Shown piece after piece: positions 24,746 through 37,549 of a stretch of DNA of 64,000 nucleotides. The number at the start of each line of letters is the position of its first letter. Within the stretch, counting starts at the first letter, position 1. The stretch is from a virus. Made by a program: the position numbers and the translations under genes. The notes below the pieces were generated by a model. It saw only the letters and a list, made by a program, of their open reading frames with translations, was not told the origin of the DNA and did not search any database. The stretch is taken from positions 62,001 through 126,000 of the IMG/VR virus record IMGVR_UViG_3300020202_000001; one strand, written 5' to 3'.

Positions 24746-27700
24746 ATGCCGGTCCCCTGCACGGGCTCCACGCCCGGCGTCTTCACGCCGAGCGGCACGG
24801 TCCACACGATCGAGACCGACATCACGAAGGGCACCCCCGTGTACTTCGCCGGGGGCATGTCGTTCCCCGCCGGCCGGTACCGGATCAAGTACCTCCGCGG
24901 CTGCCTGAAGTTCCGCCACGACTTCGACTGGGGCGTCGACACGACGTTCAAGGTCAGCGTCGACCCCGGCAGCGGGGCCACGGACATCGGCCAGGCCCCG
25001 GGCGTCGAGAACCGGCTGCCGAAGGTGAACCACCAGGGCGACGGGTCCAACCCGAACGCCAAGATCCGCGGCAAGGGCTGGCCGACGAAGGGCGAGGCCG
25101 AGGCGGCCAACCAGAACGCCCCGCCGTTCGAGTTCAACCACGGCGGCGGCAAGATCGGCGTGCGGCTGGCCGACAGCCCGTACTCGGACAACATCAGCGG
25201 CAAGCCGAGCCCGAAGTACACGCTCCAGCTCCTGGAGCCGTGCACGGTCCCGATCCCGCCCGGCGTCCCGCCCGAGACGCCCGAGGTCACGATCGTCACC
25301 TACCCGCCCACGCCGGAGGCGTTCCCCCGCGCCCGCGTGAAGTGCGGCGTGCCCGAGGTGCCGGGCATCCCCCAGCTGCCGATCATCAACGTCTGCATCG
25401 TGCCGCCCGCCCCGCAGCCGATCCTGGCGTGCCCGGAGCCGGTGGTGAACATCCCGCCGCCCGAGCAGGCGATCCCGTGCCCGCAGATCCAGGTCGGGGC
25501 GTCGTTCGAGGTGAAGGTCGGGCCGCCGTCCGTCACGCTGACCACGACCTCGACCAACACGACCGACGCGTGCGGCGACGCGACGTGCGGCACGCAGATG
25601 CACTTCGCGTTCCAGCTGCCGCCGACGCCGCAGATCCCCTGCCCGCAGATCACCGTGCAGTCCCAGACGACGGTGACGCCGGGCAACCCCGACGCCACGG
25701 TCACGGTGGAGACGCTCCCGGGCGGCCCGCCGGACCCGTGCCGGTTCAAGTTCAACTTCGCGTTCCAGCTCCCCCCGCCGCCGCCGTGCCCGCAGATCGA
25801 GGCGGAGTACACGTCGACGACGACCGAGGGCGACCCGTCCGCGAGCGTGACGGTCACGAAGACCGCGGACGACCCGTGCCGCTACCTGTTCAACTTCGCG
25901 TTCCAGATGCCGCCCGCCCCGCAGTGCCCGGAGATCGAGGCCGAGGCCACGACCACGGTCACCGAGGGCAGCCCGTCCGCGAGCGTCGAGGTCACGAAGG
26001 AGAGCGATGACCCGTGTAAGTACAAGTTCGCGTTCGCGTTCCAACTTCCACCGGCCCCTCAAGTTCCCTGCCCGCAAATCGAGGCTACATCTACCACGAC
26101 GGTCACCGAGGGCAGCCCCTCCGCCAGCGTCGAGGTGACCAAGGAGTCGGACAACCCGTGCTCCTACAAGTTCTCGTTCGCGTTCCAGCTTCCGCCCGCC
26201 CCGCAGGCACCGCAGTGCCCGACGATCACGGGCAGCGCGTCGGCGACCAGCACCGAGGGCGAGGCCAGCGCCAGCCTCGACGTGCAGAAGACGGGCGACG
26301 ACCCCTGCGCGTACAGCTTCACGTTCGCGTTCCAGGTCCCCAAGGGGCCGCAGGGGCCGTACGGCCCGACCGGGCCGTGCCCCCAGGTGACGGCGTCGGC
26401 GTCGGCGACCACCACGGAGGGCGACGCAGCCAGCGCCTCCGTCGAGGTCAGCGAGCAGTCCGGCTGCCACAAGGTGTTCACGTTCGCGTTCCAGCTCCCC
26501 AAGGGGCCGCAGGGTCCGCAGGGGCCGACCGGCCCGCAGGGGCCGCGCGGGTACCAGGGTCCGCAGGGTCCGACCGGCCCGCAGGGCAGCACCGGGCCGC
26601 AGGGGCCGACCGGCCCGCAAGGCATGACGGGGGCACAGGGTCCTCAGGGGCGTACCGGCCCGCAGGGTCCGACCGGCCCGCAGGGGGCGGACGGCGTCTG
26701 CCCGCAGTGCCCGCCCGGCGCTCAGGGTCCGACCGGGCCACAGGGTCCGACCGGCCCGATGGGTGCTCAGGGTGCCGTGGGCGCTCAAGGTGCCCCCGGC
26801 CCGCAGGGTGCCACGGGGGCGACCGGGGCGACCGGCCCGCAAGGCCCGACCGGGCCGACCGGCGCGACCGGTGCGACCGGCGACACGCCCGACGTCGGCT
26901 TCGCAACCACCGCCAACGCACTGCCGCACGGCTCGCCGCCGACCGCAGACGTCATCCCGTTCAGCGGCGGGCCGCAGAACCCGGTCTTCCTCATCACGTT
27001 CGGCATCCCCGAAGGTGCCCAAGGCGCGACCGGCCCCCAAGGCCCGACCGGCCCGCAAGGCACGACCGGGGCGACAGGGGCCACCGGCGACACGGGACCG
27101 CAGGGTCCGACCGGCCCGACCGGTGCGACCGGCGACGTCGGTCCCCAAGGGCCGACCGGCCCGCAAGGAGCTACCGGCGCGACGGGTGCTACGGGCGAAG
27201 TTGGGCCACAGGGTCCGACCGGCGCTACGGGTGCGACCGGTGATGTCGGTCCGCAGGGTCCGACCGGCCCGCAGGGAGCCACTGGCGCGACGGGTGCCAC
27301 GGGCGAGATCGGACCTCAAGGCTCGACGGGTGCCACCGGCCCGCAAGGCCCCACGGGTCCGACCGGCGCGACGGGTGCCACGCCCGAGATGGCCCTGACC
27401 TCGACGGCGAACACGCTGCCGGCCGGGTCGGCGGCGACGGCCACCGTCTCGCAGACGGCCGGCGGGCCGCAGAACCCGACGTTCGAGTTCACCTTCGGCA
27501 TCCCCGAGGGTGCCGCCGGGGCGACGGGCTCCCAAGGTTCCACCGGCCCGCAAGGTCCCACGGGTCCGACCGGCGGCACGGGCGACATGGGTCCGCAGGG
27601 ACCGACCGGTGCCACCGGCGCTCAAGGGGCGACGGGGCCACAGGGTCCGACCGGCCCGCAGGGTGCGACCGGGGCGACGGGTTCGATGGGTCCGCAGGGT

Positions 27701-29158
27701 CCGACCGGGCCGACCGGGCCGACCGGCGCGAACGGTGCTGACGGCGCTGTCGGACCGCAAGGCCCGACCGGCCCGCAAGGAGCGACCGGCGCAACGGGCG
27801 AGACGGGGCCAGCCGGCCCGGCTTCGGTCGGCGAGACCGGCCCGCAAGGCCCGGCAGGCGCGACGGGTGCCACCGGCGCTCAGGGCAGCGTGGGTGCAAC
27901 GGGTCCGCAGGGACCGACCGGTGCCACCGGCTCGACGGGCTCGCAAGGGCCGATCGGGCCGACCGGGTTCCAGGGCGGCACCGGCGCTTCCGGCCCGCAA
28001 GGCCCCACCGGTGCCACCGGTGCCACGGGTGCCCAAGGCCAGAACGGCTCGACCGGGCCGCAGGGTCCGACCGGAGCAACGGGCGCGACCGGGCTCCAGG
28101 GTCCGACCGGCCCGAGCGGGCAACAGGGCTCGCAGGGTTACCAGGGTCCGACCGGTCCGGTCGGCCCGCAGGGCAGCACGGGTGCCACCGGCGCGACCGG
28201 TGCCCAAGGCCAGAACGGCTCGACAGGTCCGCAAGGCCCCACCGGCCCGAGCGGCCAGCAGGGATCGCAAGGCGTCCAAGGTCCGGCGGGTCCGACCGGG
28301 CCGCAGGGTGCCACCGGTGCGACCGGCGCGACCGGACCGCAGGGTTCGCCGGGTGCCACCGGCCCACAGGGTCCGACCGGGGCGACCGGCCAGACGGGTC
28401 CCCAAGGCCCGATGGGTCCCACCGGTTACCAGGGCGGCATGGGGGCGACGGGTGCCACCGGCGCGCAGGGTCCGATGGGCTACACCGGAAGCACCGGCGC
28501 TCAGGGTCCGGTGGGGCCGAGCGGTGCTCAGGGTCCGATGGGCTACACCGGCAGCACCGGGGCTCAAGGCCCGATGGGGCCGAGCGGCTACAACGGCAGC
28601 GACGGGCCGCAGGGTCCGATGGGGCCGAGCGGCCAGCAAGGGCCGCAGGGCCAGCAGGGCATGATCGGGCCGCAGGGTCCGACCGGCTCGACCGGCAGCA
28701 ACGGCGCGGACGGCCCGCAGGGGCCGAGCGGTCCGACCGGCCCGCAGGGCGGCAAGACGGCGATCGTCGCGATCGACGGCAAGTACCGCGGCCTGTTCTG
28801 CACGGAAGGCCCGGAGGTCTGGTTCCAGGACTTCGTGGACGTCGAGGTCGAGATCGACGAGTGCGGGTGCGGCACGACGCGGCACCCGATCGACCCGCTG
28901 TTCATCAAGGCGTGCGAGCCGGGCTCGATCCGCGTCGCGTCCCACGCCGTCGACGCGCTCGGGCTGTCGTGCTCGTTCCTCGACGGCGGCGTGATCGTCG
29001 TCGCGGTGAACGAGGCGGTCGGTGCCAAGCGGGCGACGGCCGTCGTCGGCCTGGTCGGCGTCCGCAAGGGCTTCGCCAAGGTCCGGTTCCCCGAGTACAG
29101 CGAGGCCCAGTTCAAGGCGAACACCGCCTTCTACCAGTCGGCGTACACCCATGGCTAA
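24746..29158 (+). CDS. Modular collagen-like tail fibre
   Basis: 1470 aa; ATG with GGAGGT upstream. Domains: a globular N-terminus (1-170), a Pro/Val-rich stretch to about 240, then seven ~50-residue repeats (about 241-585) of the form C-P-x-I ... T-E-G-x-x-S-A-S-V-x-V ... C-x-Y-x-F-x-F-A-F-Q; Gly-X-Y collagen repeats with G-P-Q-G-P-T from about 585 to 1336, interrupted twice (residues about 712-760 and 878-925) by shortened copies of the same repeat ending F-G-I-P-E-G-A; a 134-residue C-terminal globular domain with a C-G-C-G motif. Such F-x-I-P-x-G junctions typically precede collagen triple helices in phage and bacterial fibres. It should be a trimeric, elongated host-binding fibre. It overlaps the following glycosyltransferase by eight bases. 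Confidence 0.85.
26500..28752 (+). repeat. Gly-X-Y (collagen) coding repeat
   Basis: About 2.2 kb of imperfect nine-base units, mostly GGT/GGC-CCN-CAN and GGN-GCN-ACN, encoding G-P-Q and G-A-T triplets. Codon choice for Gly alternates GGT and GGC here, unlike the rest of the genome where GGC/GGG dominate, which probably limits recombination between units. Confidence 0.85.
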
Positions 29159-33025: not shown

Positions 33026-33622
33026 ATGAACGAACCGACCAGCAGGCCGAGCCGCAAAGAGCTGCTCGGCCTGCTCCATTCGGTGGAGCCCAAGACGTTC
33101 TCGATCCTCTGCCGGTCCCTCGGGATCTCGACGGTGGACGAGTACGCCCCGCTTCCCACCGTAGCCGTGCTGCAAATCGCCGCCTACGACTGGATGACGT
33201 CGACCGACGTCCTCTCGTCCGACAACAAGCTGATCCTCCTGCTCTCGACGCCGGACCGGTTCGAGAGCGTGGCCCGGCTGTTCGAGCAGGAGGAGGCGGA
33301 CGGGCGGTACACGCCCCGCATCCTCGCGATCAACGACTACCGGTACGCCGTGTTCGGCCCGGTCCCGCAGGACCGCCTGCAGGGGTCGTTGAACATGTTC
33401 TTCGACGTGAAGGAAGAGCAGTGGCTGCCCGTGATGCCCCAGCAGGCCCTGACGACCGTCGCCTGCGACCTGAACGTGCTGTTGCTCCGACTCTTCGCTA
33501 GAATGGAGGCGTTCCGCCAACATCAACGCGAGGGCAAGGATGCCGCAACATCAGACGCAGTCGTACGGGGAGGTCAGCAAGCTGCCGCCGAAGGTGGCCC
33601 CGGGCCACGCGAAGGCCCGTGA
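33026..33622 (+). CDS. Hypothetical protein
   Basis: 198 aa. Helical and hydrophobic-patterned up to about residue 170, then a low-complexity tail that overlaps the next gene by 83 bases in another frame and probably carries little information. No Shine-Dalgarno is clear. A TAGAAT at 33499 inside it could be the -10 for the following gene. Function unknown. Confidence 0.5.
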   Translation: MNEPTSRPSRKELLGLLHSVEPKTFSILCRSLGISTVDEYAPLPTVAVLQIAAYDWMTSTDVLSSDNKLILLLSTPDRFESVARLFEQEEADGRYTPRILAINDYRYAVFGPVPQDRLQGSLNMFFDVKEEQWLPVMPQQALTTVACDLNVLLLRLFARMEAFRQHQREGKDAATSDAVVRGGQQAAAEGGPGPREGP

Positions 33623-34274
33623 GGTGTGGGCCAGCCCCGAGAGCTACGCCACGACCCTGCTGGTCCTGTTCGTGGACCGGTACGGGACCGAGGGGCTGGA
33701 GTGGCACCCCGAGACGATCGCCATGCAGGTCGGCCAGGACTTCGCGGTCGAGGTGCCGCGGGTCAACATGGACCGGCTGCTGGCGGCGATCACGCTGGTG
33801 ACGACGGACTACTTCTACAAGCGGCTGTCGGTCTTCAACGACACCTGCAACGTCCTGAGCGGCGACGACTTCAACCCGGGCGTGTACCAGCCGGCCGACG
33901 CGGCCGACTGCGCGTGGGGCACGACCGAGGCCCTGCTCATCTGCCCGCCGGACGAGGAGGAGCCGTTCACGGACGAGATCCGCCACTACGTCGGCCGCAT
34001 CCTGCGGGCCGAGGGCTACGTGCAGGCACCGGACATCCTCCGCATCGCCCTCGACGCCGACCTCTCCGACCAGGTGAGGGACACGTTCGCGGACGACCCG
34101 GAGATGTTCCAGGCCCTGCACGAGAGCCAGACCGCCAAGACGCAGGAGTGCGAGCAGCTGATCCGGGAGAACCTGGAGCGGCTGCTCACCCAGATCGAGC
34201 AGCTGCCGCTCGTCACGGGCAGCGCCGACCAGCTCCGCGACAAGCTCCGGCAGAACATCCGGCCCGGAGCTTGA
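33540..34274 (+). CDS. Hypothetical helical protein
   Basis: 244 aa; ATG with GAGGGCAAGG upstream. Helix-rich with Trp/Tyr and acidic clusters; residues about 180-244 form a Gln/Glu/Leu coiled-coil-like region. Its TGA stop lies within the TTGACA of the next promoter. Probably belongs with the preceding gene; no family recognised. Confidence 0.55.
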   Translation: MPQHQTQSYGEVSKLPPKVAPGHAKAREVWASPESYATTLLVLFVDRYGTEGLEWHPETIAMQVGQDFAVEVPRVNMDRLLAAITLVTTDYFYKRLSVFNDTCNVLSGDDFNPGVYQPADAADCAWGTTEALLICPPDEEEPFTDEIRHYVGRILRAEGYVQAPDILRIALDADLSDQVRDTFADDPEMFQALHESQTAKTQECEQLIRENLERLLTQIEQLPLVTGSADQLRDKLRQNIRPGA

Positions 34275-34298
34275 CACTTTCCCCCGTTCGGGTATTCC
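34271..34298 (+). promoter_or_regulatory. Promoter of the polymerase-fragment / AAA+ cassette
   Basis: TTGACA (34271-34276), 16-base spacer, TATTCC (34293-34298); a 71-base leader leads to the first cassette gene. The spacer contains CCCCCGTTCGGGT (34281-34293), identical to a 13-mer inside the minus-strand promoter at 60794-60823 and nearly identical to one at 50262. This shared motif is a candidate operator. Confidence 0.6.
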
Positions 34299-34344
34299 AC
34301 GCACCCAAGGTTTCCATTCAACGTACGATAAGGAGTAGCGACCC

Positions 34345-34800
34345 ATGACCATGACCGCCCGCGAGCCGAACCTCCAGAACGTCCCCGTCCCGCTCACCGA
34401 CGCCCAACGGGTCGAGAGCGGGCGGATTCGCCTGATGTTCGGCGACCCCAAGCCGGTGCTGCTGACGGCAGACTACTCGGCCGTCGAGCTGCGGCTGCTC
34501 GCCCACGCGTCCGTCCACGGCGTCGACGCCCTCGACCCGCAGGCCGCCAAGGCCCGCGACGACGAGGACGAGGACGAGGAGGACGACGAGGACGATGACG
34601 ACGGCGACCTCCTCGACGACGACGAGGAGGACGAGGACGAGGAGGACGACGAAGACGACGACCTCGACGACGACGAGGATGACGACCTCGACGACGACGA
34701 GGACGACGATCTCGATGACGACGACGAGGACGACGACGACTTCGACGACGACGAAGACGACGAGGACGACGAAGACGACCTCGACGATGACGACGAGTAG
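34345..34800 (+). CDS. DNA polymerase A motif-A fragment fused to an Asp/Glu repeat tail
   Basis: 151 aa. Residues 6-14 (R-E-P-N-L-Q-N-V-P) and 39-56 (L-L-T-A-D-Y-S-A-V-E-L-R-L-L-A-H-A-S) match the family-A DNA polymerase palm, including motif A with its catalytic Asp (Asp43) and the D-Y-S-x-x-E-L-R signature. Everything else of a polymerase is missing: no motif B, motif C or exonuclease. From residue 72 to the end the protein is almost only Asp and Glu in D-D-E-D-type repeats. AAGGAG lies 11 bases upstream. It cannot be an active polymerase alone. It could be a split-polymerase piece, a DNA-mimic decoy, or a relic captured by an acidic tail. The next genes form one transcript with it. Confidence 0.8.
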   Translation: MTMTAREPNLQNVPVPLTDAQRVESGRIRLMFGDPKPVLLTADYSAVELRLLAHASVHGVDALDPQAAKARDDEDEDEEDDEDDDDGDLLDDDEEDEDEEDDEDDDLDDDEDDDLDDDEDDDLDDDDEDDDDFDDDEDDEDDEDDLDDDDE

Positions 34801-34815: not shown

Positions 34816-35073
34816 TTGCTTCTAGTCGAAGGGACCATCCCCATCCACCCCGTGACCACGGCGGCCGCGACGGCCGACCCCAAGGAAGCGGCCCGACGCT
34901 TCCTCGCCGAACACCCGACCGCCCGGCTTGAGAGCATCGGCGGCAAGATCGTTCGGGGGGTGTGCCAGCGCTGCGGCACCCCGGTCATGGAAGACACGAA
35001 GGGCCACGCGTACGACCCCGAGACCGAGGCGTACACCTGCCCGAGCTGCAACCAAGGAGACAACCGGCCATGA
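34816..35073 (+). CDS. Zinc-ribbon protein
   Basis: 85 aa. Two Cys pairs, C-Q-R-C near residue 50 and C-P-S-C near residue 76, about 25 residues apart, form a rubredoxin-like zinc ribbon. The N-terminus (residues 1-40) is a basic/hydrophobic helix without motif. The TTG start follows an AAGAGGAGAG site. It overlaps the DUF1257-like gene by four bases (ATGA). Probably binds nucleic acid or a protein partner within the cassette. Confidence 0.6.
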   Translation: MLLVEGTIPIHPVTTAAATADPKEAARRFLAEHPTARLESIGGKIVRGVCQRCGTPVMEDTKGHAYDPETEAYTCPSCNQGDNRP

Positions 35074-35591
35074 GCCATGTGACCAGCTTCGAGCCCGACG
35101 AGAAGGACCAGCAGATCCGGGACCTCCCGGCCCTGGCTCGCGCCGCCGAGCGGTGCGGCCTGGAGTTCCGCGAGGGCCAGACCAGCTTCCACACCTGGGC
35201 CACCGACCACGGCCGCCTCGTCGGCGACTGGCCGGTCCCGCAGGGGTACACCCAGGCCGACATCGTGGGCGGGCAGTGCCTGCACGCGATGGGCATCCCC
35301 GGCAAGAAGGGCGTCCGCGGGACCGAGGGCTACGAGATCGGCATCGTCGAGAGCAAGAAGAACCCCGGCACCTACAGCATGCTCTTCGACTTCTTCAGCA
35401 GCTCGCTCTCCAGCAAGGTGAGCAGCGGCGCGAAGGACGCGAAGGGGAACGTGAAGCCCGACAAGCTCCACATGTTCTACCAGATCGAGGCGGCCCGCAC
35501 GGTCGCCAAGGCCAAGGGGTTCTCGTTCCAGGAGATCCCGCAGCCGGACGGCTCGATCACGGTGAAGTGCGGCAAGTCCGCCACGTTCTGA
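35070..35591 (+). CDS. DUF1257-like (Ycf35-related) protein
   Basis: 173 aa. Begins M-S-H-V-T-S-F, followed by a helix-beta pattern with I-R-D-L-P-A-L-A-R-A-A-E-R-C-G-L-E-F near residues 17-34 and Y-E-I-G-I-V-E-S ... G-T-Y-S-M-L-F-D-F-F near 88-108, closely reminiscent of DUF1257 proteins, which start M-S-H-F and end with a Y-x-I-G-x-V ... Y-x-L-V-x-D pattern. In cyanobacteria and planctomycetes such genes commonly sit beside a Ycf46-type AAA+ ATPase and a small DUF2997 protein, exactly as here. Biochemical role unknown; the match is by pattern and context. Confidence 0.6.
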   Translation: MSHVTSFEPDEKDQQIRDLPALARAAERCGLEFREGQTSFHTWATDHGRLVGDWPVPQGYTQADIVGGQCLHAMGIPGKKGVRGTEGYEIGIVESKKNPGTYSMLFDFFSSSLSSKVSSGAKDAKGNVKPDKLHMFYQIEAARTVAKAKGFSFQEIPQPDGSITVKCGKSATF

Positions 35592-35652: not shown

Positions 35653-35865
35653 GTGGAAGGTCCCCACATCCTGATGAAGTTCGCGATCGGCAAGCCGGTC
35701 GAGGTCCGCGTGAACGGCGTGAAGGGCTCGGCGTGCCGGGCGTTCTCCAAGCCGTTCGAGGACGCGATCGGCGGCAAGGTCGTCGCCGACGTCCCCACCG
35801 CCGAGATGACTCAGCCCGCGACGGTCGGGGCCGAGGTCAAGGCCGGCGGCGGCAAGACGTTCTGA
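35653..35865 (+). CDS. DUF2997-like small protein
   Basis: 70 aa. The stretch V-E-V-R-V-N-G-V-K-G-S-A-C-R-A-F (residues 17-32) followed by F-E-D-A-I-G-G-K-V matches the DUF2997 pattern in which a beta-strand with V-x-G-x-x-G-x-x-C precedes a helix ending E-x-A-L-G. Such proteins accompany DUF1257 and Ycf46-like ATPases. The GTG start has a good GAGGAG site. Presumably a ubiquitin-like or adaptor-sized partner; function unknown. Confidence 0.6.
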   Translation: MEGPHILMKFAIGKPVEVRVNGVKGSACRAFSKPFEDAIGGKVVADVPTAEMTQPATVGAEVKAGGGKTF

Positions 35866-35911
35866 CCCCACGACCCGCGCGAGACGTACCCGACGACGAC
35901 GACGACACCAC

Positions 35912-35940
35912 GCCGGCCCCGGGCTCCACCTGGGGCCGGC
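35912..35940 (+). terminator. Hairpin between DUF2997-like and AAA+ genes
   Basis: GCCGGCCCC / GGGGCCGGC, nine perfect pairs around an 11-base loop, followed by TCGCTTCCCG rather than a T run. It may lower transcription into the ATPase gene or stabilise the upstream mRNA. Confidence 0.55.
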
Positions 35941-35965
35941 TCGCTTCCCGAAGGTAAGTAAGCAC

Positions 35966-37549
35966 ATGGCTCGACTGAAAAAGGAAATCAAGGAGGCCAT
36001 CGCGGCCGCCTTCAGCGGAATCTGGATCAACAGCTACGAGCACGAGGACGCCCTCGCCGCCATCTCCGAGGCGTGCAAGGAGCACACCTGGCAGCTCATC
36101 ACCTGGGACCCGGAGTTCGGCGTCCGCAGCCCCGAGGACAAGAACCCGACCCCGAGCGACGACGAGCCGAACCCGGCGATCGCCCTCCACCAGCTGCTGA
36201 AGCTGGACACGGAGGAGAACCGGGCGATCCTCGTGCTTCGCAACGTGCTGCCGTACCTGGCCAGCGCCGAGGGCCGCGTCGGCAGCCCGCGGTTCCTGCA
36301 GGTCCTGCAGCGGACGATCGAGCAGGGAGCCCAGGACGGGCACCACGTCGTCATCCTCTCCTACGACAACCTCGCGGTGCCGCGCGAGCTGGAGAAGATG
36401 GTCTACATCATCGACCACGACCTCCCCGACGCCGAGGAGCTGCACGACCTGATGGCGTCGGTCGAGGACAACGAGGCCAAGCTCCCGGCCAAGGACAGCC
36501 CCGAGGCCAAGCTGCTGACCGACGCGGCGGCCGGGCTCACGCGGCTGGAGGCCCTCGGGGCGTTCAGCAAGAGCAAGGCGAAGCACCGCATGCTCAAGCC
36601 CGACGTGCTCTGGGAGCTGAAGGCGAAGATGCTCCAGAAGACCGGGCTGCTGGAGATGCTGACGAAGAAGACGGTCGCGGCGAACGACACGCCGATCGGC
36701 TTCTCGATGCTCGGCGGCCTGAACGTGCTCAAGGGCTTCTGCAAGAACATGTTCGACAGCCCGAACCGCAGCAAGAAGGTCCGGCCGCTCGGCGTCATGC
36801 TGGTCGGCCCGTCCGGCACGGGCAAGTCCGCGTTCGCCACCAGCCTCGGCGACGAGATCGGGTGGCCGACCGTGCGGCTCGACCCGGGCAAGCTGATGGG
36901 CAGCCTGGTCGGCGACACGGAGGCGAACACGCGGCGTGCCCTGAAGACGATCGACGCGATGAGCCCGTGCGTCCTGATGGTCGACGAGGTCGAGAAGGCC
37001 CTGGCCGGCAGCGGCGGCGGTGCCCACGACAGCGGCGTCGGTGCCCGCCTGCTCGGGTCGCTGCTGACGTGGATGAACGACCACACGAGCGAGGTCTTCA
37101 TCATCATGACCTCGAACGACATCACCGGGCTGCCGCCGGAGTTCACCCGGGCCGAGCGGTTCGACGGCATCTTCTTCCTCGACCTCCCGGGCAAGGAGCA
37201 GCGGGAGATGGTGTGGGACATCTACACCACCTACTACGCCAAGCACGGGCTGACGAAGGAGATGATCGCCGAGCGGCCGGACGACGAGAACTGGACGCCG
37301 GCGGAGATCAAGGCGAACTGCCGGCTGGCGACGCTGCACAACACGACGCTCAAGGAGGCGTCGAAGTTCATCGTCCCGGTGTACAAGACGAGCAAGGAGA
37401 AGATCGTCGCCCTGCAGCAGTGGGCGACGAACCGCACGCTCAGCTCCGACTACCCGGGGATGTACGACATCAACGGGCCGAAGAAGCTGGTCACGACGAT
37501 GGAGGAGGGTGCCCCCGCCCGCCCCCGCCGCCGCGTCACGCGGGCGTAA
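35966..37549 (+). CDS. Ycf46-like AAA+ ATPase
   Basis: 527 aa. An N-terminal half without motif (helical, with W-D-P-E-F at residues 48-52) precedes an AAA+ domain with Walker A G-P-S-G-T-G-K-S (281-288), Walker B V-L-M-V-D-E-V (336-342), sensor-1-like I-M-T-S-N-D-I and an R-F-D-x-I-F-F-L-D-L-P element. The order and spacing match Ycf46-type AAA+ proteins of cyanobacteria, plastids and planctomycetes, whose neighbours are DUF1257 and DUF2997. ATP-dependent remodelling of an unknown partner is likely. ATG start; GAAGG is 13 bases upstream. A hairpin follows the gene. Confidence 0.8.
   Translation: MARLKKEIKEAIAAAFSGIWINSYEHEDALAAISEACKEHTWQLITWDPEFGVRSPEDKNPTPSDDEPNPAIALHQLLKLDTEENRAILVLRNVLPYLASAEGRVGSPRFLQVLQRTIEQGAQDGHHVVILSYDNLAVPRELEKMVYIIDHDLPDAEELHDLMASVEDNEAKLPAKDSPEAKLLTDAAAGLTRLEALGAFSKSKAKHRMLKPDVLWELKAKMLQKTGLLEMLTKKTVAANDTPIGFSMLGGLNVLKGFCKNMFDSPNRSKKVRPLGVMLVGPSGTGKSAFATSLGDEIGWPTVRLDPGKLMGSLVGDTEANTRRALKTIDAMSPCVLMVDEVEKALAGSGGGAHDSGVGARLLGSLLTWMNDHTSEVFIIMTSNDITGLPPEFTRAERFDGIFFLDLPGKEQREMVWDIYTTYYAKHGLTKEMIAERPDDENWTPAEIKANCRLATLHNTTLKEASKFIVPVYKTSKEKIVALQQWATNRTLSSDYPGMYDINGPKKLVTTMEEGAPARPRRRVTRA

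Follow-up and report, generated by a model that had tools for sequence, protein, structure and literature searches.

A phage gene that joins a fragment of family-A DNA polymerase to an acidic repeat tail

Background

Why should a small gene of a large phage carry the motif A region of a family-A DNA polymerase and then, in place of the rest of the enzyme, a tail of nearly pure aspartate and glutamate? The gene, g090, lies in the window analysed here, a stretch of 64,000 bases corresponding to bases 62001-126000 of a phage record of 224,418 bases with 69% G+C and about 238 predicted genes by our own gene calling. Elsewhere the window encodes a 1470-aa collagen-repeat protein (24746-29158; PF01391, E 2e-90), probably a fibre.

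We describe the coding signals of g090, the origin of its two parts and the setting of the gene in related phages. Since the virus has a complete polymerase of its own, the likeliest reading of g090 is a young accessory gene and not a working part of a polymerase.

Results and Discussion

Coding signals and composition of g090

A first-pass annotation of the locus gave the coordinates, the frame, the polymerase part and the acidic part of g090 as the sequence and the list of open reading frames have them (Table 1), and it was also right that the gene, which runs from ATG to TAG, is no frameshifted polA, the acidic tail being in frame with the head. Of the two signals that the annotation assigned to the gene, the ribosome site is present; a promoter scan found none, the TTGACA box at 34271-34276 overlapping the preceding stop codon and being followed merely by TATTCC as a -10 element. 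The gene sits within a run of co-directional genes, with tight spacing to those on either side.

Table 1. Features of the g090 locus (window positions) and the complete polymerase of the same record (record positions)
Feature	Position	Strand	Basis
g089, conserved gene, left border of the slot	33540..34274	+	tblastn: ten related records have orthologues of 38-49% identity
Shine-Dalgarno AAGGAG, 9 nt ahead of the g090 ATG	34330..34335	+	sequence
g090, chimeric gene, PolA segment and acidic tail, 151 aa	34345..34800	+	ORF list; codon-usage score 112 (own gene calling)
PolA-derived segment of g090, residues 4-56, EPNLQN...IR..F...LLTADYSAVELRLLAHAS	34354..34512	+	PF00476 columns 122-171, E 7.9e-10; alignment
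Asp/Glu tail of g090, residues 72-151, degenerate 9-nt/24-nt GAC-GAG repeat with Leu/Phe at intervals	34558..34797	+	tandem repeats; codon count
g091, Zn-ribbon-like, right border of the slot, orthologue in G017	34816..35073	+	tblastn 39%, E 3e-13; weak zinc-ribbon Pfam matches
g092, conserved cassette gene	35070..35591	+	kept in G017 and other relatives
g093, DUF2997	35653..35865	+	PF11211 E 6e-9
g094, AAA ATPase of the conserved cassette	35966..37549	+	PF00004 E 4e-24; phrog_8638 E 5e-83
Complete PolA, 1157 aa	G000:C1:170701-174174		PF00476 match, own motif A

The G+C content of the head by codon position is 0.76/0.44/0.96, against 0.67/0.45/0.96 for the genome. Because its third-position value (0.957) matches that of the phage (0.963) and lies above the range of 0.65-0.92 in the polA genes sampled as possible donors, the head appears from codon usage to be translated and adapted to its present genome. 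The tail has to be judged differently: a GAN repeat lacks stops in every forward frame, so that an open frame here is weak evidence by itself, and what favours the Asp/Glu frame is that the head shares it, that a ribosome site precedes the gene and that third positions are biased. In that frame, 72 of the 81 residues from 71 to 151 (89%) are acidic, and no 80-aa stretch elsewhere in the predicted proteome of the record is as acidic as the tail (0.90, the next being 0.71); this part of the product is probably a disordered polyanion. Just downstream of the complete polymerase gene, a 717-aa protein (G000:C1:175018-177171; L009:9018-11171) has a long Asp/Lys-rich, low-complexity C-terminus and reaches 71% Asp/Glu over its most acidic 80 residues.

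The head and its source

The match of the head to Pfam DNA_pol_A (PF00476, 381 columns) scores 38.7 bits, above the curated cut-off of 34.3, the PHROG DNA polymerase family is matched at E 4e-5, and a profile built from PolA segments recovers g090 from the six-frame translation of the record at E 1.5e-14; on these sequence matches the likeness to PolA is not due to chance. Solved structures of DNA polymerase I also match g090 by sequence (best E 4.5e-6). The alignment places the catalytic Asp at D43 and the motif-A Glu at E48, and between residues 8 and 54 the head retains 23 of the 25 columns that are conserved to at least 80% among 27 PolA segments, the two changes being V13 (for I) and A46 (for Q). 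The profile match and the alignment thus bear out the earlier description of a separate small gene that holds the PNLQN/motif A segment of a family-A polymerase and retains the catalytic Asp. The Pfam match ends at column 171; motifs B and C, the fingers, the thumb and the rest of the palm are absent, and g090 has no other Pfam match and no PADLOC match.

The same record encodes a complete PolA with motif A (VEADFIGAEL), a motif B-like sequence and motif C (QIHDAV), and because of this the fragment is, as far as sequence tells, providing nothing that the phage is missing. The ~300-residue N-terminal extension of this PolA looks, by eye only, to be of the uracil-DNA-glycosylase type. Besides the complete enzyme and g090, no further piece of a family-A polymerase was found in the record by PF00476 and six-frame profile searches. 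The first-pass annotation had named a complete polA with a matching internal copy, and a lack of short homologues, as what would tell against its own reading: the complete gene is there and keeps motif A, the resident PolA is a poor match to the fragment, and no syntenic short homologue occurs in the relatives.

The fragment aligns to bacterial PolA segments with scores of up to 128, to the PolA of related phages with at most 50 and to the phage's own PolA with 41, where the best local alignment has just 10 identities in 24 positions; an origin as a copy of the resident gene was rejected on that score and those identities. The nearest sequences found are the full-length PolA of Phycisphaerales (65%), those of other bacteria and a phage PolA of another type (57%). 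Its start, REPNLQNVPxP, resembles the phage type and the part reading LLTADYS..ELRLLAH fits either, so the donor may have been a bacterial PolA or that of another phage, a choice that 50 residues do not fix.

Predicted structure

With the 27 PolA segments in the alignment, AlphaFold2 gives g090 no confident fold (pLDDT 57, pTM 0.26), and the same segment taken from a genuine PolA is itself only moderately confident (pLDDT 71, pTM 0.43). The best-predicted part is the helix following motif A, and the motif-A strand forms in neither model. Given the low confidence and the missing strand, these models make it unlikely that the head is an independent domain.

A variable slot in related phages

The large terminase led to 35 related loci in IMG/VR, where the AAA and PolA proteins, used as queries, detected no relatives, and about 30 phage records were reached in this way, of which 29 were searched. 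The PolA family is present in 20 of these 29, almost always as a frame of 1064-1250 aa. In relative G031 (L210, G031:C1:134500-143500) the PolA frame extends to 1892 aa and has intein-like insertions at two places, just behind the PNLQN region and ahead of motif B. In G001 (L208, G001:C1:33000-40000) an interruption of about 1 kb, containing an HNH endonuclease-like ORF, lies close to motif B of polA.

The genes around g090 are conserved. The order g084-g089, slot, g091-g095 is kept in G017 (identities of 49% for g089, 46% for g092 and 42-46% for g094), that of g089 and the AAA gene is also kept in several other relatives, and g094 has matches in 19 of the 29 records. The cassette of DUF2997 and AAA ATPase genes (35653-37549) is kept in many related phages and its ATPase resembles the PADLOC IetA models (E 2e-17); g092 has no Pfam match and presumably resembles DUF1257/Ycf35. 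The slot between g089 and g091 holds two unrelated ORFs in G017, signal-peptide-like proteins in G016, G020, G021 and G033, a Zn-finger-like protein in G008 and basic-tailed proteins in G015, G019 and G022. Slot proteins of 121-162 aa from three relatives (L184:567-947, L189 and L190) share a short domain at the N-terminus and carry a basic tail of Lys, Pro and Ala. A PHROGs search of the slot proteins returned nothing, and in none of the about 30 related records does this slot contain g090 or a PolA fragment. Since the content of the slot differs between lineages while g089 and g091-g094 stay, g090 is, from these gene orders, the occupant of a variable slot with lineage-dependent contents.

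Searches for other short forms

Scans of IMG/VR with 8-mers of the fragment found full-length polA only. Two pattern scans of the same collection, in which some codons were fixed and which were therefore not exhaustive, gave one false positive each: a prohead protease for motif A followed by an acidic run, and a full-length polA for an ATG-started PNLQN. Among the matches listed for 246 Planctomycetota genomes, which are the strongest, all are full-length PolA, a result uninformative on short forms. The relatives gave no match to the 71-aa head in a search run without a positive control, and our literature search found no paper on stand-alone PolA fragments.

Short-form orthologues were found in the slot of no related phage in this collection, which may lack near relatives of the record, and a single, non-orthologous fragment was found in G033. 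This is an 81-aa gene on the minus strand (L170:1480-1725; G033:C1:73981-74226) that matches PF00476 columns 117-150 at E 5e-12 and lies among small genes, overlapping its neighbours by a few bases in the manner of an operon. Like g090 it is a small phage gene carrying PF00476 columns outside polA; unlike g090 it stands at a locus other than the slot, stops before motif A, has no acidic tail and begins with an N-terminus of its own, which has no relative among the phage records. The sequence common to the two is EPNLQN and a few residues. Under uniform placement the overlap in columns would have a probability of about 8%, and a higher one given detection bias, the PNLQN segment being among the easiest of PolA to detect. 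The overlap hints, at the sequence level, that this segment of PolA is useful, and it is the main reason against dismissing a function for it, though it could be chance.

Comparison with known systems

Phage accessory ('moron') genes are small and lineage-specific, lie in variable slots between conserved genes and have their own ribosome sites. In all of these respects g090 is alike, and it differs in being partly recognisable as a polymerase fragment. Acidic C-terminal tails are known from the phage replication proteins T7 gp2.5 and T4 gp32; g090 shares the tail with these, which here makes up most of the protein, and has no detectable OB-fold domain. With family-A polymerases (PF00476) it has in common 50 columns around PNLQN and motif A, including the catalytic Asp and the nearby Glu; beyond the motifs and subdomains listed above it also lacks the exonuclease, and its 80-residue acidic tail has no counterpart in them. 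Split phage polymerases, such as the intein-containing PolB of phage MIJ3 (PMC6892783) and the PolIII alpha of jumbo phages (PMC7824862), likewise place a portion of a polymerase in a gene of its own, but their pieces make one enzyme, whereas here PolA is whole and no complementary piece was found.

Alternative explanations

Five other readings of g090 were weighed. That it is a dead relic, in which a scrap of PolA and a simple repeat were left open by accident, is a minority view that we take seriously: orthologues were not found in the relatives, no forward frame of the GAN repeat contains a stop and no confident fold is predicted, but the good ribosome site, the genome-like codon-position bias of the head, the tight spacing to the flanking genes and the retained PolA columns all speak for a gene. 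We are more doubtful that the PNLQN/motif-A peptide binds a partner of the host or phage family-A polymerase, or a defence protein that senses PolA, with the tail blocking or presenting it. The invariant polymerase residues are retained and the gene in G033 has an overlapping segment inside an operon with overlapping junctions; yet that overlap is of the size given above for an easily detected segment, the two genes have little sequence in common and stand at different loci, no independent fold is predicted and most relatives are without any such gene. A decoy, titrator or DNA-mimic role, as put forward in the first-pass annotation, is thus possible from the sequence, if weakly supported, and the broader proposal that large phages of this group repeatedly domesticate a foreign PNLQN/motif-A peptide as a small binder of a PolA partner or PolA-sensing defence, with the acidic tail as the effector here, seems to us unlikely.

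It is less probable again that g090 is the scar of ectopic intein or intron homing, in which a mobile element targeting the PNLQN region moved flanking polA sequence. In viral contig L016 a phage polA contains an intein that ends in FIVHN directly ahead of CREPNLQN, an intein in G031 lies just after its PPVQN version of PNLQN, and the G001 polA carries its HNH-containing insert at motif B; together these make the polA region a homing target. The fragment, however, differs in type from the resident polA, and no endonuclease or intein remnant occurs among the genes neighbouring g090 or the G033 gene; for want of an endonuclease beside g090 this remains a minor rival. An assembly artefact at the GAN repeat is very improbable, for although repeats provoke misassembly and the record comes from metagenomic data (IMG/VR), relatives share the gene order on both flanks, which argues against it, and the PolA piece begins with its own ribosome site and ATG and not with the missing upstream part of polA. 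Scarcely credible, finally, is the trans-acting polymerase subdomain of the first-pass annotation, or half of a split polymerase: the catalytic Asp and motif-A Glu are retained, but the resident PolA is complete, no complementary fragment was found in the record, and the head has no confident fold alone, even the genuine segment of the same size being predicted only moderately well.

A proposed origin from a captured scrap and an expanded repeat

The reading that we prefer, at about an even chance, is that g090 is a lineage-specific chimeric accessory gene, made of a captured PolA scrap and a GAC/GAG-repeat tail, that occupies a variable cargo slot in the genome of a large phage. Through illegitimate recombination the phage would have gained a stretch of ~50 residues, from PNLQN to motif A, of a foreign family-A polymerase, and this stretch would have been joined to the GAC/GAG repeat, expanded by slippage into the polyanionic tail of 80 residues. 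Translation probably starts from the gene's own ribosome site, within the co-directional run, as the site and the codon bias suggest. Known polymerase chemistry implies that a protein without motifs B and C, fingers and thumb would have no polymerase activity. If g090 acts at all, it would most likely do so by binding to basic surfaces of proteins as a disordered, acidic polypeptide; its activity would reside in the tail, with the PolA piece serving as an inert leader or as a weak targeting element.

Three findings count against this accessory-gene reading. Keeping 23 of the 25 conserved columns goes beyond what an inert leader would require, except after a recent capture; recent capture fits poorly with the adapted codon usage, and a second stand-alone gene with an overlapping segment exists in G033.

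Conclusions

The observation that prompted the polymerase-centred interpretation of g090 is real, and that interpretation exceeds the evidence; the gene illustrates how readily a motif match in a small ORF is over-read as part of an enzyme. It offers a readable case of a new phage gene built from a scrap of an essential enzyme and a simple repeat, in a slot that comparison makes visible. If the fragment is functional, it would be a polymerase-derived peptide serving as a binding module.
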